Part shown: positions 1-53,508 of the stretch, piece after piece | Numbering within the stretch: position 1 is the stretch's first letter | Layout of the letters: the number at the start of each line of letters is the position of its first letter | Source of the DNA: a virus | Reading direction: 5' to 3' (one strand) | Virus record (IMG/VR): IMGVR_UViG_3300046522_000413 | Span: 1 to 54,286 of that record | DNA length: 54,286 nt | Translations under genes and position numbers: made by a program | Notes under the pieces: generated by a model | Database searches by the model: none | Seen by the model: the letters and a program-made list of their open reading frames with translations, nothing else | Told to the model about the DNA's origin: nothing

Positions 1-3000
1 TTTTATCTGACTGGTAAAAGCACTCTTTTATATAAGGGTAGTAATTACGCTGCTGCTAATCAATTACAACTCCGCCCGGGTGTGTACACTCGATCAAGAG
101 ACACTGGCGAACTGGAATCCCACTTTAACACGGGTTCTGGTCGAAGCTTTGCTATTACCCTGGAACCACAGACTGGTATGTTCTACGTCGAAGTGGCATC
201 TAGCCGTATTCCTCTGGCACCTCTGCTGTCCAGAGTTTTTGGCGTTGGCCCTAAAGAAGTATCAATGTACATTCCGGAATCGGTTTGGAACGATAACCTT
301 AAGGCTACTTCGGGGAAAGAAGAAAAGATCATCAACGATCTTTATACCCGTCTGACCACCCGTAAAGTTCCGGCCAATTCTATAGAAGAAAAGATCGCAG
401 CCTTGCGTCTGGCTCTTGAGAACTCCCAGTTGAACGTTAATACGACCAAGATTACCCTCGGTAAACCTCTAGCTACTGTTACTCATGAAGCAGTGCTATT
501 GGCGTTGCATAATCTGGTCGAGGTCCACGCTGGTCGTAAACCTGAAGACAACCGAGACTCTCTGCAGTTCAAAGCAGTTCAGAATTTGCCTGACTTCCTG
601 GAAACTCGTTTCAAGAAAGAGAAGCTTCTAACATCCACTCTTAAGAGCCGTATCACCTATGCTCTAGATAAAGCGGAGAAAAGTGGCCAAGCCATTAAAA
701 TCCGTGGATCCGTTGCGAGTAAACCTTTCAACAAACTGTTCTCCAGCTACATCATAGAATCAAATCTGGTTACCACTCCTAGTGAGACCAACCCGATCGA
801 ATCTCTGGAAAACGTTGGCAAGGTAACTGTGCTCGGTGGCCTGGAAGGCGGTATTAGTTCTGACCGTGGCGTCCCTATGAGTGCCCGAGATATCGACCCA
901 TCTCACCTAGGTATCCTTGACCCTTCCCGTACTCCGGAATCGGGACACGCTGGTATTGACCAACGTTTCACCATCGCAGCTCATCGTGATAAAGCAGGTA
1001 ATCTGTATGCACGTATGAAAGATAAGAGTGGCAAGGAAGTTTACCTAAGCGTAGGTGAGGTGATGAACTCCGTCATCGGTTTCCCTAATCAAGAAGGTAA
1101 AACTATTGTCCAAGCTCAAATCAAAGGTGAACTTGGCGAAGTCCCTGTTTCCAAAGTGGATTACTGGTTAAATAGTGCCACGGACCTGTACACAGTTACT
1201 ACCAACCTAGTGCCGTTCTTGAATAGTAATCACCCGGGTCGTCTAACCATGGCCGGTAAAGCTATTCCTCAGGCACTGTCTCTGGTAGACCGAGAAGCTC
1301 CTCTGGTTAGAACGGTGGACGAACATGGTAGAGCCTTTGTTGAGACTTTGGCTAAAGTCATTTCTCAAACTACTTCGCCTGTTAACGGGACCGTAAAGTC
1401 GATTACGAACAAATCAATCGTAATAACTGACGAAGGTGGTAAAGACCATACGATTACCCTGGTAAAGAACCTTCCGTTCAACATGAAAGGTTTCTACGAT
1501 GATGAACATCCCCTGGTCAAAGTTGGCGACAAGGTAAAAGCTGGTCAAGTTCTGGTAGATAACAACTACACTAAAGATGGTGTTCTGGCTCTCGGTAAGA
1601 ACCTCCAAGTGGCGTACATGCCTTATAAGGGTTATAACCACGAGGACGGCCTTGTTATTAGTAAAAGTTGTGCTCAAAGTCTTAGCAGCCATCACGCTTA
1701 TAAAGTAGACTATGATGTGCAGCCTACAACCCTGTTAAAGAAGAGTTTGATTCCTCGTTATTTCCCAGGCAAATTCACTAAAGAACAGCTTGAGAAACTG
1801 GATGACAAAGGGTTCCCTCTGATCGGTACCAAACTCTCCAACGGAGACCCCGTTTACATCGTCCTAGAGAAGCGTGAGCCGACTCCTGAGGACAAGATGC
1901 TAGGTAGACTCCATAAGAACCTTGTGAACCCGTATAGGGCCGTTACGGAGGTTTGGCATCATGATGAGCCGGGTGTTGTGGTTGATGCCCATACTGAAGG
2001 TAAAGCTATCCGTATACTTATCCGTAGTATCAAAGAGTTGGAAGTAGGCGACAAACTTACGGGTATGCACGGTAACAAGGGTATCGTTTCGTTGATTATG
2101 GAAGATCACGATATGCCTTTCAACAAGGAGACTGGTAAACCTGCTGATATCCTGTTGAACCCTGCATCGGTTACGAGCCGTATTAACCTCGGTCAGCTGA
2201 TGGAAACTGCAGCAGGTAAAATTGCCCAGAAAACTGGACAGCCTTATAAGATTCATAACTTCTCGAAAAAGTCTAATATCGTAGATATCAACAAAGAGCT
2301 TAAGAGCCACGGTATCGACGATAGCGAAGTGTTCGTGGATCCTAAAACTGGCAAGGATTTGGGTAGAATCCTGACTGGACCTCAGTACATGATTAAGCTC
2401 TATAAGACCTCTGACCAAAACTGGAGTGCTCGTAACGTCGGTGCCTATGACAATACGATGCAACCTACCAAGGGTGGTGAAGAAGGTTCCAAGAGCGTTG
2501 GTTACATGGAGATGCTCGGTCTTCTCGGTTCGGATGCCCGTAAGAATCTTAAAGAGATTACGACGCTGAAGAGTGAGGAGAACAGTGACTACTGGAAGAA
2601 ATTCCTGACCGGTCAACCGTTGCCTAAGCCTAAGACGACTTTTGCAACTGAAAAGTTCTTTAACTATTTGACTGCAAGTGGTATCAAGACTTCGTTTGAC
2701 AAAGGTAATATCACTGCCAGCCCATTAACTGATAAAGATATTATATCGATGAGTAATGGTGAGATTAAAGAGCCTACTAGACTTAATGCTAAGAATCTAG
2801 AACCTGAAAAGGGCGGGTTGTTTGATAGTGCGCTTACTGGCGGTATTCGTGGAACGAAGTGGACTCACTACAGATTAGCTGAACCGATTGCCAACCCAGC
2901 TTTCGAAAGACCGATCAAGAGTCTTCTAGGTCTAAATACTAAGGAGTATACAGGTATTGTCCAAGGATCCATCGGTATTACTCACGTTAAGGACGGCGTA

Positions 3001-3114
3001 TTCCACCTCCATGATACTACTAACGGTAAAAAACTGAAGGTAATCGATACGAGGGTAAGTAGTCTTGTTGACCACGTGGATGATCCGGAGCCCGAGGAAC
3101 ACGAAGAAGCGTAA
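1..3114 (+). CDS. RNA polymerase beta subunit fused to N-terminal segment of beta-prime (5' partial)
   Basis: The reading frame is open from the first base, so the true start lies outside the window. About 1,037 residues are visible. The order of motifs follows bacterial RpoB: RPGV near the left edge, GKNLQVAYMPYKGYNHEDG around 1590-1650, GDKLTGMHGNKG around 2050-2085, DMPFN...DILLNPASVTSRINLGQ around 2110-2200, and the KLY...SARNVGAYD clamp-binding region around 2390-2450. After the beta C-terminus, 2740-2930 matches the N-terminus of beta-prime: GEIKEP...LEPEKGGLFD...GTKWTHYRLAEPIANPAFERPI, without the Zn1 cysteines. This gene is therefore seen as a beta/beta-prime fusion whose continuation is the next gene. 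A terminator follows. Phage multisubunit RNA polymerases made of split beta and beta-prime chains are established in phiKZ-like phages. Whether this one is packaged in the virion is not shown. Confidence 0.93.
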   Translation, partial: FYLTGKSTLLYKGSNYAAANQLQLRPGVYTRSRDTGELESHFNTGSGRSFAITLEPQTGMFYVEVASSRIPLAPLLSRVFGVGPKEVSMYIPESVWNDNLKATSGKEEKIINDLYTRLTTRKVPANSIEEKIAALRLALENSQLNVNTTKITLGKPLATVTHEAVLLALHNLVEVHAGRKPEDNRDSLQFKAVQNLPDFLETRFKKEKLLTSTLKSRITYALDKAEKSGQAIKIRGSVASKPFNKLFSSYIIESNLVTTPSETNPIESLENVGKVTVLGGLEGGISSDRGVPMSARDIDPSHLGILDPSRTPESGHAGIDQRFTIAAHRDKAGNLYARMKDKSGKEVYLSVGEVMNSVIGFPNQEGKTIVQAQIKGELGEVPVSKVDYWLNSATDLYTVTTNLVPFLNSNHPGRLTMAGKAIPQALSLVDREAPLVRTVDEHGRAFVETLAKVISQTTSPVNGTVKSITNKSIVITDEGGKDHTITLVKNLPFNMKGFYDDEHPLVKVGDKVKAGQVLVDNNYTKDGVLALGKNLQVAYMPYKGYNHEDGLVISKSCAQSLSSHHAYKVDYDVQPTTLLKKSLIPRYFPGKFTKEQLEKLDDKGFPLIGTKLSNGDPVYIVLEKREPTPEDKMLGRLHKNLVNPYRAVTEVWHHDEPGVVVDAHTEGKAIRILIRSIKELEVGDKLTGMHGNKGIVSLIMEDHDMPFNKETGKPADILLNPASVTSRINLGQLMETAAGKIAQKTGQPYKIHNFSKKSNIVDINKELKSHGIDDSEVFVDPKTGKDLGRILTGPQYMIKLYKTSDQNWSARNVGAYDNTMQPTKGGEEGSKSVGYMEMLGLLGSDARKNLKEITTLKSEENSDYWKKFLTGQPLPKPKTTFATEKFFNYLTASGIKTSFDKGNITASPLTDKDIISMSNGEIKEPTRLNAKNLEPEKGGLFDSALTGGIRGTKWTHYRLAEPIANPAFERPIKSLLGLNTKEYTGIVQGSIGITHVKDGVFHLHDTTNGKKLKVIDTRVSSLVDHVDDPEPEEHEEA

Positions 3115-3125
3115 GCTTAAAATAT

Positions 3126-3148
3126 AACCCGGCTAGTCCGGGTTTTTT
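3126..3148 (+). terminator. Rho-independent terminator after beta gene
   Basis: AACCCGG and CCGGGTT form a 7-bp stem with a 5-nt loop, followed by a run of six T. It separates the beta fusion gene from the next RNA polymerase gene, which has its own promoter-like element. Confidence 0.8.
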
Positions 3149-3171
3149 AATATTCAAATATAGCCGAGAGT

Positions 3172-3178
3172 TAAACTA
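3172..3178 (+). promoter_or_regulatory. Late -10-like element for leaderless start at 3184
   Basis: TAAACTA followed by exactly 5 nt and then ATG. It is a one-base variant of the TAAAATA-N5-ATG pattern seen before several other late genes, and no Shine-Dalgarno sequence is present. This suggests transcription starting at the A of the start codon. Confidence 0.45.
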
Positions 3179-3183
3179 TTATC

Positions 3184-4356
3184 ATGACTACTTCAACTGC
3201 GAATAAAAATACATCAGTGGATCCAGGCATCCTGAAGGTAGGAGGTCCCGCCCTGGAAGAGATGTTATCCCGTGTAAATCTTCAAGCTCAGGTTAAGAAC
3301 CTGAAAGATGAAATTCTGTCTACTAAAAGTCCTAGCAAAAGGGATACGCTTATCAAGAAATTGAAGTACGTAGATGGATTAATTAAAAACGAATTGCAAC
3401 CTGACGAAGCTTTTATCATCAGGCACATGCCGGTGGCACCTCCGTTAGCTCGACCTATTACCATCATGGGTAATAACAACATCGAGTATGCTGACGCCAA
3501 CGAGCTTTATAAAGATCATATGACCGTTAATGAGTCCTTTAAAGGAATTAAAGACTACATGACGGACGATATGATGATAGCAGAGAGAAAAGCTCTGTAT
3601 GACGGTGCTAAGGCTATTTTTGGACTTGGAGATGCGATCTCAGGTTCAAGCCGTGGTAAGAATCTGAAGGGTTATATCCGCCAGATCTCAGGTACATCGG
3701 GTCCTAAGCAAGGTTTCTTCCATAGTAAGCTTCTGAGTAAAAAACTCGACTTCTCTGGACGCGGCACCATTTATGCTGAGCCTAATCTAGGGTTTAACGA
3801 AGCTGCTATCCCGGAAGATATGATCTGGGTGACGTACGCCTTCCATATTACTAGAGACTTAGTCAGACAAGGCTATGATTATGTAAGTGCTAAACGAGCA
3901 GTCGCAGAAAGAAGTCCTGCTGCCCAGGCTAGTTTTAACAAACTCATCAAACAGATTCCAGTGCTCCTAAACCGTGCACCAACACTGATGAGAACTAATA
4001 TTACCGCTCACTACCCTGTGCCAATTAAGGGTAAGACTATCGGTATTAACCCCTTGCACCTACCCCTGTACGCAGGTGACTATGACGGTGACGCATTAAC
4101 CCTACAGGTTCCAATGACCCCTGAGGCGGTTCTTGAAGCCCGAACAAAACTATTGCCGGAGCATCATATCCACGATTATCGTAAAGGGTTGAACAGTAGT
4201 ATGGTTGCACCGGGCCATGAAGCTATTATTGGCAGTGTTCATATGACTCAACCTGATATGACTCAACAACCAGTGCATTTTAAAACTGAACTCGAAGCTT
4301 TGAAAGCCCTGAAGGACGGGACTATTAAAGAAAATACCCCAATAACTATTGGCTAA
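3184..4356 (+). CDS. RNA polymerase beta-prime, central catalytic part
   Basis: A 390-residue protein collinear with bacterial RpoC from roughly the region after the zinc ribbon to the active site. It starts with a GGPALEEML...KRDTLIKKLK segment typical of the clamp coiled-coil approach. It continues through LPV-like MPVAPPLARPI, the lid/rudder region KLLSKKLDFSGRG, LLNRAPTLMR, and the catalytic loop AGDYDGDA around residue 300 (bacterial NADFDGD). All three metal-binding aspartates are kept. The bridge helix and trigger loop are absent here and lie in the gene at 15639. The N-terminal segment of beta-prime is attached to the preceding beta gene, so beta-prime is broken into three pieces. It acts as part of the phage transcription enzyme. 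Confidence 0.92.
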   Translation: MTTSTANKNTSVDPGILKVGGPALEEMLSRVNLQAQVKNLKDEILSTKSPSKRDTLIKKLKYVDGLIKNELQPDEAFIIRHMPVAPPLARPITIMGNNNIEYADANELYKDHMTVNESFKGIKDYMTDDMMIAERKALYDGAKAIFGLGDAISGSSRGKNLKGYIRQISGTSGPKQGFFHSKLLSKKLDFSGRGTIYAEPNLGFNEAAIPEDMIWVTYAFHITRDLVRQGYDYVSAKRAVAERSPAAQASFNKLIKQIPVLLNRAPTLMRTNITAHYPVPIKGKTIGINPLHLPLYAGDYDGDALTLQVPMTPEAVLEARTKLLPEHHIHDYRKGLNSSMVAPGHEAIIGSVHMTQPDMTQQPVHFKTELEALKALKDGTIKENTPITIG

Positions 4357-9513: not shown

Positions 9514-10434
9514 TTATCTAACGTGGAGTTTATCATAAACCCCGTACTCGACTTTATCTATATCTCCGTCCGCATCTCCATTAAAGACCGGTACTCTAAG
9601 CCTACCACCTTCAATGCTTAACCCCATAGTTTTAACCTGGATAAGACGGCCAATCCATTCTCTTGGATTTTTCCAAATCTCTTGACGTAAGGGCCTTGAA
9701 AATCCAGTGCCAACCATACCTACAACTTTGCCTGTCGAATCAGTTAATTCAAGGGCCCCCATAGAATCTTTAGGATGTCCGTTCTTGTCAAACTCCTGGA
9801 TAACTCTATTTACTCGTAGATTGAAAGTATAGAAGTGTTTAATCTTCGCCCGGGGATTATCATGCTCCGGCTTAGTCAAGCTTGCAACGATAACGCCTTC
9901 TCTCTGCTGCCGCTTAGTGAAATCAATAAGCTTATCAATGTTCTCCTTTCCTATGGCTGGATCATCAACAAACATAAGGTCGGGGTTACCGAAATGTTTC
10001 TCCAAAGTTTTCATATGGATAAGCTTGTCTTTGTACGTTGGAAGCTTAGGTTCTATAACATCGATTAAAGCCGCCCGTATTGGGCCAGTATCTTTCTGAG
10101 TTTGAATAGCCTTGAGAGGTAGTGAATTCAAAATACCACTAGTAGCCGTGTGAGACTCTGGCGTTTCTTTAAGGTGACCTGTATGTATAAGCTCAACGCT
10201 AAATACTTGGCCTGCAAACTGAGGTAACTTCTTTTCAGATAGATGGGGTATTTGCGCAGATCTTTCGGGGTGACCTCCTTTTACGGAAGGTCTACGAGAA
10301 TAGTATTTTTGATTGCCCTCGTTATCGATCTGGAGAAAGAAGTGGGCGCCATCACGTTTTAAAGTTGCAACGGGATCGGGTATATCCCGGTAGTCTAATT
10401 TACCAGGGTCTTTGTATTTGGCGCGTTCGTACAT
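9514..10434 (-). CDS. ATP-dependent DNA ligase-like nucleotidyltransferase
   Basis: A 306-residue protein with the covalent nucleotidyltransferase motifs in order: motif I TLKRDGAHF (lysine nucleophile, KxDG), motif III VFSVELIH, motif IV REGVIVAS, motif V KIKHF, then an OB-fold-like C-terminus ending WIGRLIQVKTMGLS...RVPVFNGDADGDID. This is the organisation of minimal ATP-dependent DNA ligases. It overlaps the upstream gene by one base (TAATG) and sits 1 kb from a LigD-like 3'-phosphoesterase gene in the same direction, which suggests joint work in DNA end healing and sealing. An RNA ligase is a less likely alternative. Confidence 0.8.
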   Translation of the reverse strand: MYERAKYKDPGKLDYRDIPDPVATLKRDGAHFFLQIDNEGNQKYYSRRPSVKGGHPERSAQIPHLSEKKLPQFAGQVFSVELIHTGHLKETPESHTATSGILNSLPLKAIQTQKDTGPIRAALIDVIEPKLPTYKDKLIHMKTLEKHFGNPDLMFVDDPAIGKENIDKLIDFTKRQQREGVIVASLTKPEHDNPRAKIKHFYTFNLRVNRVIQEFDKNGHPKDSMGALELTDSTGKVVGMVGTGFSRPLRQEIWKNPREWIGRLIQVKTMGLSIEGGRLRVPVFNGDADGDIDKVEYGVYDKLHVR

Positions 10435-11325: not shown

Positions 11326-11469
11326 ATGGATACTGCACTATTCTATCTAGGATATTACACAAAGCCTCTATTCAAGTACTTTGAGGAACATCCTCTTGTA
11401 TTTCTCACGTTGATCACTGCATTAACCATTAAGGTAACCTCAACGAGGTTCGGTAAAGGTAAGGATTAA
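11326..11469 (+). CDS. Small 47-residue membrane-like protein
   Basis: A short ORF with AAAGGAG 6 nt before ATG and a TTTTGGTATAAG promoter motif just upstream. The protein starts MDTALFYLGYYTKPLF, has a hydrophobic stretch (HPLVFLTLITALTIKV) that could be one membrane span, and ends in a basic tail (RFGKGKD). Its last codons overlap the convergent gene at 11466. Opposite orientation to its neighbours plus its own promoter argue that it is real. Function unknown. Confidence 0.65.
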   Translation: MDTALFYLGYYTKPLFKYFEEHPLVFLTLITALTIKVTSTRFGKGKD

Positions 11470-12734
11470 GACTTAAGAGCATCGGTGAATGCAGCCGATG
11501 TTCTTTTTAGCTGGGCAGCAACCGGATTAATACCGATCTCAGATACTTTATGTTTTATCTTAGATAAGATTCCGTTTTTACCCCCGTTAAGCTCTGACTT
11601 AACACCTTTTTTGATAGGCTTAAACACTAGTTGTTTATGAATGATCCCGTTAAATCTTTTACCGACCAGAGTGTCATCAAATCTATGGCTGCTTGTAAGC
11701 GCCTTCAGGGTATTTAATGCGCCGCCGGCAGGCTCAACCGCCATACTGGTAAGCGCCCCTGTCAACGGGGCTTTCACAGTTAACTGACCTGGTTTGAAAT
11801 GTTTACCCTGAGGTAAGCTCCCGCGACTTATATTCTTAACGAGATTCGATACTAATGGGTGAGACTTATCTTCAAACAGTCTTTCTACATGATGAGATTT
11901 ACTTGCTAACGTTTCGATAGAGGGTAGATTGTCTATATGTTTAGATGCGATCTCGTAACCTTTACGTACAACGTGGTCTTCATGAAGTTTATGTTTAACC
12001 AGATCGGAAATACGTCCTTCACTGATCATCCTCAAACCTACTTTTTGTCTATCTGAAGCACGATCCAGGAGGGGCTTCATTGAAGAGCCTAATTCATGTA
12101 CCCGCTTATGGGCAATAGCGAGGTCGGGTAGAAGTGCCCCTGACGCAAGTCTAGTAACCCTAGCCTTAATACTTTTATCAACAACTCCGTGTGCACCTTG
12201 TGAAAAGGCGTTGGCTAAATATTTGCCTACACCTTTATGCCCTAGGGCCGCTTTGGTAGCAACGTTTTGAACTATATGAGTACCTACTGCGCCTGCTATG
12301 AGACTGGCGGACTTATCCAGGAACTTATTCGAACTCGAACCTAGATTCCTAAACAGCCATGCCTTTTCACCATACTTAGTAGGAAGCTTTTTGAACAGGT
12401 ATCGTTCACCCCGCTTGGTAGTCAGGGTGAACTTTTCTGGATCTTCTTCAGGATTATTAACTGTGCCTTTTCTAACCCAATCCAAGGTAGTAACCCCCGC
12501 ACCGTACTGGCCAGTGGGAATAATAACCTTCTTACTCAATGCATATGCACTATCATGCACCGGCTGTTCCCATAGGATAATAGACGAGCCAACGCCCGGC
12601 ATGTCCTTTTTGGTTGCCCATGAAAAAGCTTTGTCCCCTACGACAATTCGATAATCGAAGTGCAGGCCCATTCTTTCAGCCTCGTGTCTTTGACGAGTTA
12701 GTAGTACTTCTTGGTTATGTGATAGTGTTGGCAT
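11466..12734 (-). CDS. LigD-type 3'-phosphoesterase domain protein with internal NKFLDKSA motif
   Basis: A 422-residue protein. Residues 10-131 match the phosphoesterase module of bacterial LigD: RHEAERMGLHFDYRI (HxxxxxxxHxDxR), KAFSWATKK, an E and H in WEQPVHDSAYA, IPTGQYGAG, and a closing WLFRNL. In LigD this metal-dependent module removes 3'-phosphate or 3'-ribonucleotide ends before ligation. At residues 136-143 stands NKFLDKSA, a variant of the NKYLEKIA motif. The C-terminal ~280 residues are helical with Ala/Gly stretches and are unassigned. Fusing a nuclease module to a virion-type tail suggests the enzyme is injected. TAAAATA lies 5 nt before ATG, as in late genes. Confidence 0.75.
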   Translation of the reverse strand: MPTLSHNQEVLLTRQRHEAERMGLHFDYRIVVGDKAFSWATKKDMPGVGSSIILWEQPVHDSAYALSKKVIIPTGQYGAGVTTLDWVRKGTVNNPEEDPEKFTLTTKRGERYLFKKLPTKYGEKAWLFRNLGSSSNKFLDKSASLIAGAVGTHIVQNVATKAALGHKGVGKYLANAFSQGAHGVVDKSIKARVTRLASGALLPDLAIAHKRVHELGSSMKPLLDRASDRQKVGLRMISEGRISDLVKHKLHEDHVVRKGYEIASKHIDNLPSIETLASKSHHVERLFEDKSHPLVSNLVKNISRGSLPQGKHFKPGQLTVKAPLTGALTSMAVEPAGGALNTLKALTSSHRFDDTLVGKRFNGIIHKQLVFKPIKKGVKSELNGGKNGILSKIKHKVSEIGINPVAAQLKRTSAAFTDALKS

Positions 12735-12808: not shown

Positions 12809-14095
12809 TTACGGACGTGCGTGACCCGGGAGGGGCCATTCAGGTGCCGGACTCGGGTAAGGCCATTCAGGTGCCTGAGACACTGCCGGGGCAGGGGTCA
12901 GGGTATTCATGGCCTCTTCGATTGCTTCCACGGTTTTCTTTTTCGGAAGAGCTCTCTTAGGCTTAACCTCTTTGGTCTCGGTTACCTTAGTCCTCTTACG
13001 GGGATTCTTAGGCTTCGACTCTTTCACAGGTTCTACTTTGACAGGTTCCAGCTTTGCTTCTTCTGCAGGTGCGGGTGCCTCTTCCGGGTAAAGCTTGGAC
13101 TTGAGATCGAGGAGAGAGGCTTTGATCGTATCCGGAAGGCTGGACAGGACATAAGCATCGAATCCACTTTCGCTCTTGAAGCTATCGATGTAGGTCTTCA
13201 TGAGTTGGTTGAGGTTTTCACCCGAAAGACCCGTGATTTGGGAAACGACCGTTTCGTTGAACTTCGTTTTCACGAGGTTCTTGAAATCGGTAGTCTCCTT
13301 GATCGAAACGATCTTCTCAACCGTATCTGGGAATTGGCTACGGAAGTTACTTGCCCAACGTAATCCACTGTACTGAGTAGGGTCGAACATGTTGGTATCG
13401 CTTACTGCTGCGGAATGCGTTGCAAATTCAGCCAGAAGTGGCCTTTCTGTAGCGGAAGCGGTAGAGGCCGCCACACTCGCAGCAAACGTGTTCTTGTTGT
13501 AGAGGGACATACGAGTAAGAACGCCCCAGATATCTCTTTTGCTATTAACCCCATGGTAATACGAGTTGAGATCCAGTCCCAACATCGTGCAGATAACCGT
13601 CGGATTGGAGCTTAAAAGCTTTGGGCCGAAACCTTCGATATTCAAGGAGAGACCCTCTTCGTTGAGAAAGAAATCAAGGGGTTTGATAATCTCGTTAAGG
13701 ATCTCATTAACACCAGAATACCGATGGTAAAAATCTGCGGCTTCAATTTCAGTAACGAGATGCATGTTCACCAGGTGGTCCCCCCATTGGAACGAATATA
13801 CATCGGCGTCGGGGAGCTTGGAATGATGTTCAGTCATGAGGCCTTTACGCCCCACCAGACTCACCCATTCGGAGGGCCAATATTCACGTTTAACCAGGAT
13901 ATCGATAGCAGGTTTCATGTTGCCATCAGGAGTAGGTATGACGGTCCTAGTATACCGGGTATGTATGCCGGCCCTACGGGACAGATTTGCACGGAGGTTT
14001 TCCGCAGTCTCGATATACCGTTGACGCCCGATATTCACTGGGGTATGTCCGGTTTTAGTGATGTAATAATCCCGGGCAGCGCTTTGGTTGATCAT
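12809..14095 (-). CDS. Unrecognised early-type protein with basic Lys/Pro-rich tail
   Basis: A 428-residue protein with AAAGGTAG before ATG and its own TTTTGGTA-type promoter. Residues 1-340 form a globular region with no family that could be named. Segments such as LPDADVYSFQWGDHLVNMHLV faintly recall nucleotidyltransferase acidic motifs, but this is too weak to assign. Residues about 345-400 are a low-complexity Lys/Pro/Ala/Glu linker, and the end holds two PEWP repeats. It lies beside the palindromic element A, and both neighbours of that element are transcribed away from it or toward it by the same promoter class. A role linked to replication or DNA binding is possible but not shown. Confidence 0.7.
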   Translation of the reverse strand: MINQSAARDYYITKTGHTPVNIGRQRYIETAENLRANLSRRAGIHTRYTRTVIPTPDGNMKPAIDILVKREYWPSEWVSLVGRKGLMTEHHSKLPDADVYSFQWGDHLVNMHLVTEIEAADFYHRYSGVNEILNEIIKPLDFFLNEEGLSLNIEGFGPKLLSSNPTVICTMLGLDLNSYYHGVNSKRDIWGVLTRMSLYNKNTFAASVAASTASATERPLLAEFATHSAAVSDTNMFDPTQYSGLRWASNFRSQFPDTVEKIVSIKETTDFKNLVKTKFNETVVSQITGLSGENLNQLMKTYIDSFKSESGFDAYVLSSLPDTIKASLLDLKSKLYPEEAPAPAEEAKLEPVKVEPVKESKPKNPRKRTKVTETKEVKPKRALPKKKTVEAIEEAMNTLTPAPAVSQAPEWPYPSPAPEWPLPGHARP

Positions 14096-15638: not shown

Positions 15639-17465
15639 ATGACTACTAACTATACAACCGCTGGAAGCCTGCTGTTAAAGCACTCCATGCCTACCGAAGA
15701 ATCGAAAAAAGCATATGACGTTCATCAAGTGCTAGACAAACCTGGTATGTCTAAACTTGTTAACATGCTGCTGAGTAAGGGTGGAGATAAGGCTCATGAA
15801 ACTATCAATGATCTAGGGAAGACCTTCTTCACTAAGGCGTATGAGATTGGTGCGTCCACGCCCCTCAGCGACTACATTAACGATAGTGATGAAAGACAAG
15901 CCATCATTAAAGAGTACGACTATAAAGTCACAGATCTGAAATCTAAGATCAAAAATAAGTCTCAACTGAACTCGGCTTTGGCGGAACTTACTGGTAAGTA
16001 CAACAAAATCATCGAGAAACAAAACCTTGAATACCTTGTTCCCAAGGGTTCCATGGCTGCTCGCATGGCTCAGACTGGTGCCCGTGGTAATCCTGCTCAG
16101 TTAGGTACTGCAACCTCGACCCCGCTGATGTCAGCGAACATGTCGGGTAACCTGGTCCCCATCGTTATCAAACACTCGTTTGCAGAGGGTATGAGCCCCG
16201 CTGAGGCTCTTGCACTGTCGTACATGGGCCGGGGTAGCACCGTGTTGTCTCAGCTCTCTACGGCCCTTCCTGGGGCTCTATTCAAGCGTATCTCCCCTAC
16301 TGTCTTCCATGAGGTTATCACGATCGAAGACTGTGGCACCCGTAATGGTATCATTCAGAAAACTGACGACAAGAAAGCTGTCCTTGGTCGATTCGAAGCC
16401 CGTACCAATAAGCTCATCGACGAGTCGTATTTGAACGAACTCGTACATAGCGGTAAGAAAGAAGTTAAGGTCCGCAGTTCGATGACCTGTGAGGCTCCGG
16501 ATGGTATCTGCAAGAAATGCCATGGGCTGATGGGTAATGGCAAGATGCCGGAGACAGGTGAGAACGTGGGTGTTATCGCTGCACAATCTGTCTCAGAAGT
16601 TCTTACTCAGGCTATGCTTGGTACCAAACACAAAGCAACGGTCGGTGAACGTAGAGGTAATGCATATCAACAGGCTAGTAACCTTCTGAACAACCCTACT
16701 GAAAACTTCCAAGATGAAGCAACGATTTCTACTCTGAACGGTAAGGTTAATAAGATCGAAACCACGAGTCTGGGTGACAGTAATGTGTACGTCAATGGTG
16801 TTAAGCACTTCGTACCCATTTCCCAACCGCTGGTAGTCAAGGAGGGTGAGAATGTCCTACAGGGAGATAGACTAAGTGATGGGGTTATCAATCCTCGTAA
16901 ACTCGTAGCTCTTCGTGGCATGGGTGCTGGTAGACGTTACTTGGCTGATGAACTTCGCAACATCTACGGCGGTGGGCTGGATCCGCGTCACTTCGAGATC
17001 ATTGCTAAGAACCTTATTCGCTATGTACAAGTAACCGATCCCGGTGAAAGTCCATTCCTGCCAGGTGACAAAGTAGAGATAAATGCTATTGCAAAGTACC
17101 TGCAACATAATGAAGGTGAAGTGGCTACGGAAAACGGCGCAGGTAAGATTCTCGCCAAACCGATCCTGAACTTAACTCCGGGTACTCTCCTTGACTCGAA
17201 CCACATCAAAGAACTGACTGATCATGGTATTACTAAGATCTTTGTAAGCCCGACTGGACTAAGAGTTAATCCAATCGTTCCGGGTCTACAGACTGCTAAG
17301 CTGTTGGATAAAAACTGGATCAGTAAGTTAAGTTTTGCAAAGTTGAAAGATACAATTACTCAAGCAGCGGCTCTTCACGAAGAAAGTCCCATCCACTCCA
17401 CGGATCCTATTGCTCCGTATATTATGGGTACGGAATTCGGTGAAGGCGCAGACGGGAAATACTAA
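15639..17465 (+). CDS. RNA polymerase beta-prime, C-terminal part
   Basis: A 608-residue protein. It contains the bridge-helix region MAARMAQTGARGNPAQLGTAT around residues 133-155, followed by SYMGRGSTVLSQLS, then EDCGTRNG. Next comes the Zn2 cysteine cluster CEAPDGICKKCHG around residue 285, and the trigger-loop approach GENVGVIAAQSVSEVLTQAML. These match the second half of RpoC. It is separated from the catalytic middle part (3184-4356) by 11.3 kb that includes the fibre operon and element A. It overlaps the transglycosylase gene by one base, so it is expressed with virion genes, which fits a virion or late RNA polymerase. Confidence 0.92.
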   Translation: MTTNYTTAGSLLLKHSMPTEESKKAYDVHQVLDKPGMSKLVNMLLSKGGDKAHETINDLGKTFFTKAYEIGASTPLSDYINDSDERQAIIKEYDYKVTDLKSKIKNKSQLNSALAELTGKYNKIIEKQNLEYLVPKGSMAARMAQTGARGNPAQLGTATSTPLMSANMSGNLVPIVIKHSFAEGMSPAEALALSYMGRGSTVLSQLSTALPGALFKRISPTVFHEVITIEDCGTRNGIIQKTDDKKAVLGRFEARTNKLIDESYLNELVHSGKKEVKVRSSMTCEAPDGICKKCHGLMGNGKMPETGENVGVIAAQSVSEVLTQAMLGTKHKATVGERRGNAYQQASNLLNNPTENFQDEATISTLNGKVNKIETTSLGDSNVYVNGVKHFVPISQPLVVKEGENVLQGDRLSDGVINPRKLVALRGMGAGRRYLADELRNIYGGGLDPRHFEIIAKNLIRYVQVTDPGESPFLPGDKVEINAIAKYLQHNEGEVATENGAGKILAKPILNLTPGTLLDSNHIKELTDHGITKIFVSPTGLRVNPIVPGLQTAKLLDKNWISKLSFAKLKDTITQAAALHEESPIHSTDPIAPYIMGTEFGEGADGKY

Positions 17466-18262
17466 TGTCAACCACTGTAGGACTAGCAAGATCAAGTAGT
17501 AAACCTAGTGCTATTTCGAAGTCCTACTCCTCTGCCCAGGCTATTCGAACCGAAGTCGATGAACTTATAAAAAAACATTTTTCATCGACCTTAGGTACGA
17601 TACAGGACGTAACTAAACTAGTAATGGCCTGTATTTATAAAGAGAGCGCGTTCAATCCTAACGCTAACTCGGGCATACACGGGGAGTCTCAACTGAAGAA
17701 ATTCCTAGGATTTCCCAGTATAGCTGCGAAGATAAGAAATCCCGCTACTACTCAGCAAGAACGTGTTAATCTTAGAAACTCCGTAGCAGGGTTTGGACTT
17801 ATGCAGGCTACAGGTTGGTATCTTATAAAGGGTGCTAGTTCTAGTGGAACCAGTGAGATTCTACGCATGAGGAGTGACCTTGCAGGGGATCTTATCGTTG
17901 AGCCTGGCACTGATATCAATACTGTGTTAGGGCCAGACAACGTAACTAACCAGATCTTGGCAGGGCTTATAATCCTTGAGGATAAGTATAAGATAGCCCA
18001 AAGTTACGTCAGCAATCCTCCTACTGGGGCCAAGCCTTATTCAAACCGGACTATGGCTACGTTTGGCCTCTACCTGGGTAAGGGCATGGACAAGTTCAAC
18101 TCAACGCCTCAAGCATATGCAGCCTCAATCCTGTACGGGGATTCTTACAAAGTAGCAAATGGACCTGGAGCTGCTATGCCTGGAAACAACAACGGAAACT
18201 TAGCAAATGGACCTACTACGACTAAAGCTAGTGGGGATAATAGAGGTCCAGCAGGATGCTGA
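17465..18262 (+). CDS. Lytic transglycosylase (SLT-like), probable virion lysin
   Basis: A 265-residue protein. The lysozyme-like fold is indicated by ACIYKESAFNPNANSG (catalytic Glu60) and GFGLMQATGWYLIKGA around residue 112. A Gly/Asn-rich tail follows, with a final cysteine. It would cleave peptidoglycan strands, most likely during DNA entry because it is coupled to a virion-type operon, with no holin or spanin nearby. There is no signal peptide. Start overlaps the RNA polymerase stop (TAATG). Confidence 0.75.
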   Translation: MSTTVGLARSSSKPSAISKSYSSAQAIRTEVDELIKKHFSSTLGTIQDVTKLVMACIYKESAFNPNANSGIHGESQLKKFLGFPSIAAKIRNPATTQQERVNLRNSVAGFGLMQATGWYLIKGASSSGTSEILRMRSDLAGDLIVEPGTDINTVLGPDNVTNQILAGLIILEDKYKIAQSYVSNPPTGAKPYSNRTMATFGLYLGKGMDKFNSTPQAYAASILYGDSYKVANGPGAAMPGNNNGNLANGPTTTKASGDNRGPAGC

Positions 18263-32009: not shown

Positions 32010-32357
32010 TTAGATATCTAATTCTACCAGCATCTCTCGGAGTTCGTCCACGTTTGCCTTCATGTTTACGAAGTTTAAAAGCCTAAGTTTAATCCGTGTT
32101 AGTTTAAGGTCTGTAGGATGCATAACTAACGCCAGTTCTTGAGTAAAGTCCTCCACACTATAGGTATAGTCGCCGGGGTTCACACGACCGGGATCCCTTG
32201 CTGGGTTCGGCCCTATACCGTAAAAATTTATACTTTTCTTGGTAAGATCTGTAGCTTCTTTATACTTTACAATACGGTAATAGTCACCCCTCACTGAATT
32301 ACCGTATCTATATCTCCAGAGGGTGCCCGGGCCAAACATCTTTTCTCTGTTAATCAT
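32010..32357 (-). CDS. Array paralogue (ninth of the tandem series)
   Basis: A 115-residue protein. The N-terminal half has the array pattern FGPGTLWRYRYGN...YYRIVKY, and the C-terminal half is helical, ending in the array motif DELREMLVELDI. It overlaps the upstream gene by ATGA, so translation is coupled. Unknown function. Confidence 0.75.
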   Translation of the reverse strand: MINREKMFGPGTLWRYRYGNSVRGDYYRIVKYKEATDLTKKSINFYGIGPNPARDPGRVNPGDYTYSVEDFTQELALVMHPTDLKLTRIKLRLLNFVNMKANVDELREMLVELDI

Positions 32358-32704
32358 ACTTCTACCTCCATCAAAAGATTATGAACATCAGAGATTGATC
32401 CGAAACTATGGAGCATAGCTATTGTCCGTTTAGCCTTGAATACCTTTTTATCAGTATCACTGATATGAGGTGTGAAGTTTTCAAGAAGATGAAATATTTT
32501 GAGTCCGTCCGGAGTACCACGGCGATCCTCAGGGATTAATGCGTTGATATCGCCACCTATATATCGGAGCCACGCACTGGAATACTGCATGCCACTCTTG
32601 GACATATTTGTACGGGTTGCTTCGTGGATGTAAGGGCCTGTACGATGTCTATTTCGATTAAGCCACAGTGCACCCGGCAGTAACCCCTTCTTGTAATGAA
32701 TCAT
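32354..32704 (-). CDS. Array paralogue (eighth)
   Basis: A 116-residue protein beginning MIHYKKGLLPGALWLNRNRH and ending SISDVHNLLMEVEV. The PGALW start and the final helix match the other members, although the middle is divergent. Overlaps both neighbours by 4 nt. Confidence 0.75.
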   Translation of the reverse strand: MIHYKKGLLPGALWLNRNRHRTGPYIHEATRTNMSKSGMQYSSAWLRYIGGDINALIPEDRRGTPDGLKIFHLLENFTPHISDTDKKVFKAKRTIAMLHSFGSISDVHNLLMEVEV

Positions 32705-33030
32705 AGTTTTACCTCAAAAACAACGTTGTAAATATCTTCTTTTAAAACTTGGTCTTCTACACATTGGTGCAGGAGAGCTGTGAGCCGAGCCATCTTGAGA
32801 TAGTGCTCAGGAGGGATTTTGATGAACGTATTTTTGAACTCATCCTCTGAGAACGTGATAGAATCCTGATATAGAAGTCCGATTCTTCTGGTGCGGATAT
32901 CTCCCGCTCTAATTTCTTCCACCCGGAATATAGAGGTTCCAATAGAGTCAAGCGGGACTTTACTACGTCTATACTGACTCATCCAAAGGGATCCTACCTC
33001 GACCTCTTCGTTCACGGCATATTTAATCAT
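32701..33030 (-). CDS. Array paralogue (seventh)
   Basis: A 109-residue protein beginning MIKYAVNEEVEVGSLWMSQYR. The middle holds the strand pattern IFRVEEIRAGDIRTRRIGLLY, then FIKIPPEHYLKMARLTALLHQ, which matches the RPPEYYRKL segment of members four and three. It ends EDIYNVVFEVKL. Confidence 0.75.
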   Translation of the reverse strand: MIKYAVNEEVEVGSLWMSQYRRSKVPLDSIGTSIFRVEEIRAGDIRTRRIGLLYQDSITFSEDEFKNTFIKIPPEHYLKMARLTALLHQCVEDQVLKEDIYNVVFEVKL

Positions 33031-33362
33031 TAGACTTCCAACTGAATGAGAAGTTTGTGAAATTCCTCAGTAAACCCTGCCCCATACAAGCTCCTTAATT
33101 GATTTACGATAGCAATCAATTTGGAAAGCTTAGTTTCCCAGGGTTCGTTGAGGAGGACAAACTGTCTGTCCAGCATATGGAAATCAAAGTTATGTTCATC
33201 CCCTCGGTAACGGCCCTTCCCCCCTATGATTTCATATTTACCATCCTTCCGGGGCCTCGCCTTAATAATAAACTCGGATCCAGCTGATCCCGCCATCGTA
33301 GGGGATTTGTAAACTATCACCGTGCCGGGGTACAGCGTTTCAGGCAATTTCTTAATCATCAT
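33030..33362 (-). CDS. Array paralogue (sixth)
   Basis: A 110-residue protein with LYPGTVIVYKS, then the internal IIGGKGRYRGDEHNFD, which is close to IGGRGNYDGETYHFD of the next member, and the end FHKLLIQLEV. This pair is the most similar in the array and suggests a recent duplication. Confidence 0.78.
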   Translation of the reverse strand: MMIKKLPETLYPGTVIVYKSPTMAGSAGSEFIIKARPRKDGKYEIIGGKGRYRGDEHNFDFHMLDRQFVLLNEPWETKLSKLIAIVNQLRSLYGAGFTEEFHKLLIQLEV

Positions 33363-33688
33363 ATCTCCAGTTCAACTAGAATTCTATAAATGTCATCTCG
33401 GGACGGCTCCATATACGCAGGGTGAAGTTGACCGAAGATAGACGTCAGTTGAGTCAGCTTTCGTTCCCATTTTTCTCCCAAAGGAACCAGATTAGTCTCA
33501 ATGTCCTTCCGGTCAAAATGATAGGTTTCCCCATCATAGTTACCTCTTCCTCCGATGAAACTCTGCCTTTTATCAGAATTTCTTATGATGTCTGCAACGA
33601 ACAGGCTACCGACACTGGATAGGGATCGAGCGTCTTTATAAACGAACACTGAACCTTGAGGTATGATGTTTGGAATTGGTTTGATCAT
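33359..33688 (-). CDS. Array paralogue (fifth)
   Basis: A 109-residue protein with IPQGSVFVYKDAR, IGGRGNYDGETYHFD and the end DIYRILVELEI. Closest relative is the neighbouring member at 33030. Overlaps its neighbours by 4 nt on both sides. Confidence 0.78.
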   Translation of the reverse strand: MIKPIPNIIPQGSVFVYKDARSLSSVGSLFVADIIRNSDKRQSFIGGRGNYDGETYHFDRKDIETNLVPLGEKWERKLTQLTSIFGQLHPAYMEPSRDDIYRILVELEI

Positions 33689-34005
33689 AGTTCCATCTCA
33701 ACTAACAAGTTATAAATCTCAGAGACATTAATGAGATCCTTGAGGGAACAGATTATACTTTTAAGGCGTATGAGCTTTGTGTTTTCAGAGTTAGGCTTCT
33801 CTATGAATTTCGTGTAGAATTCCTTTTTGTCATAACTAAAGGTATCTCTCCTATATTCTCCTACCCGGTCGTACCCCTGGAGAGTTAGTTCATATTCGCC
33901 AACATTATTACAACGGTAGAAATATGAATCATAGGATTTTGAATAAGTGTAAATCCAATCCTTACCTTCAAAATTTTGAAGAACTTTATCTGGTCTAATT
34001 ATCAT
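33685..34005 (-). CDS. Array paralogue (fourth)
   Basis: A 106-residue protein beginning MIIRPDKVLQNFEGKDWIYTYS, with YRRDTFSYDKKEFYTKFIEKP in the middle and EIYNLLVEMEL at the end. The first residues match members at 34006 and 34348 (MILRPEKT, MIIHLEKT). Confidence 0.78.
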   Translation of the reverse strand: MIIRPDKVLQNFEGKDWIYTYSKSYDSYFYRCNNVGEYELTLQGYDRVGEYRRDTFSYDKKEFYTKFIEKPNSENTKLIRLKSIICSLKDLINVSEIYNLLVEMEL

Positions 34006-34347
34006 TCAAACACCCTGACTGTTTATAACCTCGTATACTTCGAGAGGCGTGGTTATATGTTGAAGTTGCATTAACGTAGACTGAAGCTGTGCCAACTTAC
34101 GATAATACTCCGGGGGGCGGAATACGAAGCTTTTGAAGGTAGTCTCCAGGTTAAATCCGAAAGTGTCTGTTACAGGACCCTGTTCATAAGTAGCGTCTGA
34201 AAGCCGTGCTTCAAGATGGCTACCATAGCGAGTTCTTAAGACGTCTCTGCAAATGTAGTATTCTGTACGAGAAAAACTCTCTGTATAGATAAGGTCTCGC
34301 CCTATTAAGTTTTTACCATCCTGGGTTTTTTCAGGTCTCAGAATCAT
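34006..34347 (-). CDS. Array paralogue (third)
   Basis: A 113-residue protein: MILRPEKTQDGKNLIGRDLIYT, then EYYICRDVLRTRYG, DTFGFN, RPPEYYRKLAQLQSTL, and the end PLEVYEVINSQGV. Strongly similar along its length to the next member (34348), so a recent tandem duplicate. Confidence 0.8.
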   Translation of the reverse strand: MILRPEKTQDGKNLIGRDLIYTESFSRTEYYICRDVLRTRYGSHLEARLSDATYEQGPVTDTFGFNLETTFKSFVFRPPEYYRKLAQLQSTLMQLQHITTPLEVYEVINSQGV

Positions 34348-34686
34348 TTAAATCTCCTGACTGGCTACCGCTTCGTATATCTCGATGGGGTCCGAGATGC
34401 CTTGAAGCAAGATGAGAATTGACCGGATTTTCATCAATTTACGATAGTACTCTGGGGGACGGAGTATAAAATCGTTGTAAACATAGTCGCCGTTATGTTG
34501 GAAGGTGTCCTCTCTAAGTCCCCTATCAGGGTACCCTACCGATAGCTCCGCATTATATCCGCCGTATCTTGACTCAGAAATACTTCTGCAGACGTAATAT
34601 TCCTTGTCCGAGCCTCCTAATGTATAAACCAGTTCCTGTCCTATTAGGTTTCTACGATCAGGAGTTTTTTCGAGATGAATTATCAT
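34348..34686 (-). CDS. Array paralogue (second)
   Basis: A 112-residue protein: MIIHLEKTPDRRNLIGQELVYT, EYYVCRSISESRYG, DTFQHN, RPPEYYRKLMKIRSILILL, and the end PIEIYEAVASQEI. Clear sister of the member at 34006. Confidence 0.8.
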   Translation of the reverse strand: MIIHLEKTPDRRNLIGQELVYTLGGSDKEYYVCRSISESRYGGYNAELSVGYPDRGLREDTFQHNGDYVYNDFILRPPEYYRKLMKIRSILILLQGISDPIEIYEAVASQEI

Positions 34687-35043
34687 TTAAATCTCCAAGT
34701 CTATCAACGTCCTGCCAAGCTCTTCCTTGCTCAAGAACTCTGAGCTCTGGGTCAGGATACTCCTAAGCTTTCTCAGAACACGTTCATGCTCAGGAGGATA
34801 CGGCCTGAAATGGCTATTCCAGCTTTTAATCCCGTAATCTTCATACCAACTGAATCGATTTGTTTCCAGGTCGAGAGTTCCATCTCGAAGTTCGGCCTCT
34901 CTACCCAGGTGCCTTACCGCCAGACTACCTCCCTTACGTACTCTGGCTTGGTAGATATTTCGATTATCCAAACCATCAGTGCCGGCCACTCCTACCCATA
35001 GCGGCAGTTTATCTATTTCATCAAGTGTGTAATGCCTATGCAT
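34687..35043 (-). CDS. Array paralogue (first of the main series)
   Basis: A 118-residue protein: LPLWVGVAGTDG, YQARVRKGGSLAVRHLG, FRPYPPEHERVLRKLRSIL, and the end ELGRTLIDLEI. It carries the same two-part layout, and its PPEHERVL matches the PPEYYRKL segment of its neighbours. Starts 15 nt after the terminator of the upstream operon, so it is probably expressed by read-through. Confidence 0.75.
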   Translation of the reverse strand: MHRHYTLDEIDKLPLWVGVAGTDGLDNRNIYQARVRKGGSLAVRHLGREAELRDGTLDLETNRFSWYEDYGIKSWNSHFRPYPPEHERVLRKLRSILTQSSEFLSKEELGRTLIDLEI

Positions 35044-53331: not shown

Positions 53332-53508
53332 ATGAACAAATATCTAGAGAAAATAGCGGAGGGATTGAGAGATGACCTATATAAGCCTAGGACGCGTTTA
53401 AAGGCCCCTAGGGGCGTTAAAGCGAAGAAGGTGACCCGAGTCTCCACCCACAAGATTAAAACGTCTCTAAAGGCCTCTAAGAGGCTTAGAGACAGATCGA
53501 TAGTTTAA
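53332..53508 (+). CDS. Tagged, highly basic (histone-like) peptide
   Basis: A 58-residue protein beginning MNKYLEKIAEG, then almost only Lys, Arg, Ser and Thr (YKPRTRLKAPRGVKAKK, HKIKTSLKASKRLRDR). If the tag sends it into the head, it would act like T4 internal proteins or a DNA-condensing peptide. It starts right after element B. No clear Shine-Dalgarno sequence. Confidence 0.7.
   Translation: MNKYLEKIAEGLRDDLYKPRTRLKAPRGVKAKKVTRVSTHKIKTSLKASKRLRDRSIV

Follow-up and report, generated by a model that had tools for sequence, protein, structure and literature searches.

The origin of the split RNA polymerases (RNAPs) of large phages is disputed, intron-driven fission, a cyanobacterial origin and relics from before the last universal common ancestor (pre-LUCA) having each been proposed. 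In phiKZ-type and cyanobacterial enzymes, β′ is broken at a common site, after its double-psi β-barrel (DPBB), and mobility has been quoted as a driver of RNAP gene splitting (PMC7598289). In Salmonella phage Arash, an isolate with published virion proteomics, the chains are called plainly β and β′, and the sections consulted do not remark on a fusion (PMC10585845). PMC7481178 mentions a fused RNAP of crAssphage. Here, a 54,286-bp phage fragment (IMG/VR virus record IMGVR_UViG_3300046522_000413) was analysed over its whole length, called the window below. Its RNAP core was read from three open reading frames (ORFs), all on the + strand: gene 1 joins β to the N-terminus of β′ (β::β′N), gene 2 holds the middle of β′ (β′M) and gene 3 its C-terminal part (β′C). 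Taken as a whole, the locus is best explained by a fused ancestor, two successive breaks and a three-chain RNAP that would reassemble, an account which we consider likely. The features are as follows.

1–3114, + strand: gene 1; 5′ end open at the window edge, stop codon at 3112
1..2709, + strand: RNAP β portion of gene 1 (PF00562, E 3e-65), ending at the β C-terminus FFNYLTASGIK...
Within 1..2709, + strand: DPBB-B motif GDKLTGMHGNKG, with invariant GDK/G-K columns
2710..3000, + strand: β′ N-terminal segment fused to β, equivalent to RpoC ~20–140 (hhalign, Protein Data Bank (PDB) profile, PF04997, ratio of nonsynonymous to synonymous substitution rates (dN/dS))
3001..3114, + strand: C-terminal end of gene 1, with a hairpin region and an acidic tail (junction alignment)
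3126..3150, + strand: intrinsic-terminator-like hairpin and T-run in the gene 1/gene 2 gap (7-bp stem, 5 GC; consensus match only)
3184..4356, + strand: gene 2, β′ middle from the clamp coiled-coil to DPBB-A, 390 aa (PF00623, PF04997, tblastn)
4078..4092, + strand: catalytic DYDGD motif (direct sequence reading)
15639..17465, + strand: gene 3, β′ C-terminal part, 608 aa (PF04998, tblastn)
16188..16289, + strand, approximate: bridge-helix region GMSPAEALALSYMGRGSTVLSQLSTALPGALFKRI (motif reading inside the tblastn match to RpoC 592–936)
16566..16637, + strand, approximate: first helix region of the trigger loop VGVIAAQSVSEVLTQAMLGTKHKA (motif reading inside the same match)

The true start of gene 1 lies upstream of the window; in a near-identical contig the gene was found as a stop-to-stop ORF of ~1140 aa. 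Using Pfam, residues 461–825 of gene 1 were matched to RNA_pol_Rpb2_6 (E 3e-65) and its C-terminus to the very start of RNA_pol_Rpb1_1, gene 2 to RNA_pol_Rpb1_1 (PF04997) from position 157 and, with its DYDGD motif, to RNA_pol_Rpb1_2 (PF00623; E 1e-16), and gene 3 to RNA_pol_Rpb1_5 (PF04998; E 1e-15). The β portion was 52–97% identical to Arash, Vibrio phage D69 and IMG/VR relatives. On the unsplit PHROGs profile phrog_25354 (1216 positions), the three genes were placed at 16–56, 170–539 and 641–1103, respectively. In tblastn searches of a small database, the tail of gene 1 hit the rpoC frame, not the rpoB frame, of Salmonella (RpoC 4–66), Staphylococcus, Acinetobacter and Enterococcus (E 2e-4 to 1e-3), gene 2 hit Salmonella RpoC 179–515 (E 4e-47) and gene 3 hit RpoC 592–936 and 1187–1332; overall, the β′ part of gene 1 spans RpoC ~10–140, gene 2 RpoC ~179–552 and gene 3 RpoC ~570–1332. 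All hallmarks of a two-barrel multi-subunit RNAP were present, namely DxDGD, the conserved lysines of the β DPBB (GDK...GNKG, with G44, D45, K46 and K54 invariant in the alignment) and the bridge helix/trigger loop region. From these sequence matches, the three genes can with good confidence be regarded as the catalytic core of one bacterial-type phage RNAP.

The joint in gene 1 is direct: the β end FFNYLTASGIK is followed within ~10 residues by β′ sequence (ASPLTDKDI...SNGEI...EPEKGGLFD), and the zinc-binding domain of β′N is replaced by ~10 residues, TGGIRGTKW. A β′N profile was built from 37 phage sequences of the segment downstream of the β C-terminus. Aligned with bacterial RpoC N-termini using hhalign, it scored 95.8% (E 6.6e-9) over a stretch that runs across the position where the zinc domain is missing, and an hmmsearch of all PDB chains returned 31 distinct sequences, all of them β′ N-termini (best E 1e-4). 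The window segment by itself matched PF04997 at E 3e-4, and 17 of the 37 profile members also matched this family individually. The preliminary description, made from the sequence, had made its reading of the gene 1 C-terminus depend on homology to the β′ N-terminus; under profile alignment this homology held, and the tail was placed on β′ N-termini only. Its other assignments, gene 2 as the β′ middle from the clamp region through DYDGD and a bridge helix and trigger loop far off, were likewise recovered, the latter two in gene 3, ~11.8 kb downstream of DYDGD, and the arrangement of β::β′N, β′ middle and β′C was borne out by profiles, relatives and trees.

In three-chain pairs with estimable dS, the β′N core gave dN/dS values of about 0.03–0.15, near the constraint of β, and these ratios indicate that the tail is under purifying selection. 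The tail might instead be a non-functional leftover whose role was taken over by gene 2, and residues 1001–1037 at the very end of gene 1 do vary more in some pairs; the nearly β-like constraint on the core and the start of gene 2 at the clamp helix, without a duplicate of the N-terminus, make this highly improbable. In known multi-subunit RNAPs, β′N packs on the β C-terminus at the clamp base. The continuous β′N-M of a two-chain relative (contig L029) was predicted with a mean local confidence (pLDDT) of 83, and the model aligned end to end with E. coli β′ 20–552 (Z ~23, about 477–486 residues) and also with cyanobacterial RpoC1. The linker that was later broken is a low-confidence stretch at ~115–134 of this model, flanked by a three-strand element and the clamp helix, so that, in the model, a break there would leave two folded parts. 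A point on the other side is that the AlphaFold model of gene 1 residues 640–1037 was itself of low confidence (pLDDT 64); it was rejected as evidence for β′N, with β chains as the top Foldseek matches and a VIA-align alignment that reached only the first ~170 residues.

Relatives, about 70 in all, were collected by scanning IMG/VR and INPHARED, and their chain states were taken from ORF maps. One chain, with β through β′C in a single ORF of ~2060 aa, was found in ~25 metagenomic contigs. Two chains, β::β′N-M (~1525 aa) and β′C, were found in Arash, Vibrio phages D69 and D181 and several contigs, and the same state was assigned to Vibrio phage D148 by tblastn. Three chains were found in the window and in 14 other contigs in which both the gene 1 and the gene 2 pieces were seen; β′C was a separate ORF in every three-chain record tested, and the new C-terminus of gene 1 was acidic in most members. 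With Arash-like phages the window shares the direct β–β′N joint, the lack of a zinc domain and the separate β′C; a single β′N–β′M chain is absent from it, as the window and its clade encode these parts in separate ORFs. When bacterial genomes were scanned, two contigs of metagenome-assembled genomes were the only ones returned. During scoring, L044 and L058 were moved from one chain to two, the former with β′C in a separate, far-off ORF and the latter resting only on an ORF that ends after β′M near the contig end. L067 looked broken because of two in-frame TGA codons (10262, 14036), but was kept as one-chain on the ground that TGA may be recoded there; ORFs of this locus become longer when TGA is read as a sense codon.

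Genes 1 and 2 could in principle still yield one protein through an intron, translational bypass or an assembly error, as gene 2 lies in the frame of gene 1 with 69 nt between them and a group I intron does interrupt β of D181 (for which reason D181 was not scored as a split gene). This is hardly credible: the break is common to 15 contigs, the gap varies from 69 nt to 8.1 kb and is often filled by tail-like or other genes, the pieces have separate ATGs and new acidic tails, the window contains no intron, and the same junction was found in an independent contig with 87% identical DNA. Two separate genes are thus the preferred reading.

Mobile elements do invade the β gene in this group, as seen in the D181 intron and in LAGLIDADG insertions of L061 and L064, which are probable inteins because they match LAGLIDADG_3. 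Long in-frame insertions within β were also seen in L058, L060 and L068. L012 carries two group I introns (13436–13643 and 17233–17513) with homing endonuclease ORFs annotated nearby, one of the introns lying inside β at window residue 409/410. No intron or other Rfam family was detected near the gene 1/gene 2 junction of the window; the elements in the relatives fit the idea that mobility drives splitting, with none seen at this junction.

Phylogenetic trees were calculated for β under LG+G4 (70 rows), for β under the LG+C20 mixture (36 rows), for β′M and for a concatenated core. In all four, the three-chain phages formed one clade (Shimodaira–Hasegawa-like approximate likelihood-ratio support (SH-aLRT) 96–99) nested in the two-chain phages, the combined clade having a support of 90–99. 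Once L044 and L058 were assigned to the two-chain state, the LG+C20 β, β′M and concatenated trees required three state changes, the minimum for four states. A root beside the three-chain clade was rejected (approximately unbiased (AU) test, p 4e-4). Because of this rejection and the nesting, the second break, between β′N and β′M (N/M), is a derived fission of the gene. For phiKZ-type RNAPs, a pre-LUCA enzyme of several chains has been proposed, of which the separate pieces would be relics and from which longer chains would have been made by successive fusion (PMC7824862). For the lineage studied here this is very unlikely, as both the root test and the nesting in every tree speak against it and the bacterial outgroups do not attach next to the three-chain phages. 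For the N/M break of the window lineage the proposal is contradicted; for phiKZ it is not.

The first break, between β′M and β′C (M/C), was probably a fission too. A single-chain ancestor is favoured because the one-chain phages form a paraphyletic basal group in the LG+G4 β, β′M and concatenated trees, though its priority is not settled. Two points weigh against it: monophyly of the one-chain phages was not rejected (AU p 0.22), so that the single chain could be a later fusion, and the outgroups are distant. The corresponding alternative, rather unlikely in our estimate, takes the two-chain state as ancestral, with β′ already broken after the DPBB, β fused to β′N-M and the single chain a re-fusion, leaving the N/M break as the only fission. 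Besides the AU result, it can draw on a zero-length branch at the relevant node of the LG+C20 β tree and on outgroup phage YerA41, in which β′ is split after the DPBB, cyanobacteria being cited as a like case; it is opposed by the paraphyly of the one-chain rows around the root in three trees and by the unsplit β′ of the bacterial outgroups and of Cobetia phage Carin-5. A graded series within one phage clade, from a ~2060-aa single chain to two and then three chains by two successive fissions, is a reasonably probable reading.

Under the two-fission reading, β and β′ would have been fused in one reading frame in the ancestor. The first break would have fallen after the β′ DPBB, giving β::β′N-M and β′C as in Arash, and the second in the short linker that leads from the β′ N-terminal hairpin to the clamp helix (RpoC ~141–178), and from a break of β::β′N-M at this site the β′ N-terminus would be left as a tail of β. 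The three chains would be expected to come together again as a single α-free enzyme that uses the sigma70-type factor encoded by the phage; by homology with Arash, the RNAP may be carried in the virion, where it would serve to transcribe the early genes after entry. If this is true, 'split' phage RNAPs can arise secondarily, by breakage of a single-chain enzyme, and the N-terminus of β′ has been permanently adopted by β. Intermediate chain states coexist in one clade and the tree locates the later break, which is a rare visible record of splitting by breakage; because the intermediates survive, the later break is placeable and Arash is isolated, the tolerance of the core to breakage and its α-free assembly can be tested on a matched set of one-, two- and three-chain enzymes.

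The α subunit (PF01193) was detected in none of six phage records by a test that was positive in 13 of 14 control genomes. Sigma70 region 2 was above the cut-off in five of the six records, the near-identical contig included, and a single RNAP set (one PF00562 and one PF00623 gene) was present in all five related records, the window itself being a fragment. In L093, the sigma70-like factor of the near-identical phage occupies two ORFs (1106–1495 and 1687–2112), region 2 followed by a region-4-like part, and is apparently interrupted. The near-identical phage contig L092 (184,920 bp) carries at 971–1828 an ORF of 285 aa that weakly resembles the zinc region of β′C (E 3e-4) and, judging by this match, is possibly a partial β′C paralogue; a similar weak match was seen in the L025 record. 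In Arash virions, gp206 (β::β′NM) was the most abundant protein detected (3516 spectra, 100% coverage), and gp216 (β′C, 1210 spectra) and the sigma factor gp10 (467) were also found (PMC10585845). Because these chains and the sigma factor occur in virions, the lineage probably packages its RNAP, and by analogy the window phage may do so as well.

At least six window ORFs carry M(x)NKYLEKIA/VA at or close to their N-terminus, at 53332(+), 20945(+), 27725(+), 29909(+), 38925(+) and 11261(−). Relatives have this motif too, one gap gene of L027 containing it twice, and it was not found mentioned in the open-access literature; we take it to resemble the capsid-targeting N-termini of T4. Between the RNAP genes, 9514–10434(−) and 11466–12734(−) gave weak matches to DNA ligase OB-like and LigD 3′-phosphoesterase-like domains. 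The pattern TAAAATA-N5-C stands directly 5′ of the ATG at 12734(−), 15639(+) and 37410(+), which are all its sites in the window, and these three starts lack the AGGA-type ribosome site that other genes have; the pattern is a candidate phage promoter with little leader, its number of sites not being above chance and only their placement striking. At 32010–35043(−), about nine head-to-tail ORFs of ~106–118 aa, many of them 25–45% mutually identical, form a tandem-expanded family.

Compared with described systems, the phiKZ/AR9 non-virion and virion RNAPs share with the window the lack of α and the β′ break after DPBB-A, but differ in a β that is broken too, in two RNAP sets, in having no recognisable sigma and in that no β::β′N joint is described (PMC7598289). 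In the window, gene 2 ends near RpoC 552 and gene 3 starts near 570; β is unbroken, the ~1140-aa ORF of the near-identical contig covering it, and the related records have neither two RNAP sets nor a missing sigma homologue. The preliminary remark that phiKZ-type enzymes are split elsewhere consequently stands for the N/M break and the unsplit β, but not for the M/C break. Cyanobacterial RpoC1/RpoC2 have the break after the DPBB as well, but RpoC1 keeps its own N-terminus and β is separate. Bacterial rpoB–rpoC fusions (Wolinella, Ca. Adlerbacteria) form one β–β′ chain like the one-chain phages and, unlike the window, are not re-split as far as described (PMC11515920). The mReC RNAP screen of Weinheimer and Aylward used β and β′ matches of ≥800 aa each, and would miss the window β′ because its pieces have only 390 and 608 aa. 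No description of β::β′N, of a single-chain β–β′ in this lineage or of the one-two-three series was found in the open-access literature, which is weak evidence of novelty. The single-chain IMG/VR phages (e.g. L035, L043, L061) have the domain order and the direct β–β′ joint of the window, but within a single ORF of ~2060 aa; in some of them β carries LAGLIDADG insertions, and they are metagenomic only. Vibrio phages D69, D148 and D181 are two-chain and ~47–52% identical, D181 with a group I intron and homing endonuclease in β. Arash gp206 and gp216 are 53–54% identical to the three genes and have the same β::β′ fusion point, missing zinc domain and M/C break, but differ in carrying β′N and β′M in one chain with β (1525 aa), hence in two chains. 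The window enzyme is thus not of the phiKZ type, and its closest known counterparts are those of Arash and of Vibrio phages D69, D148 and D181.
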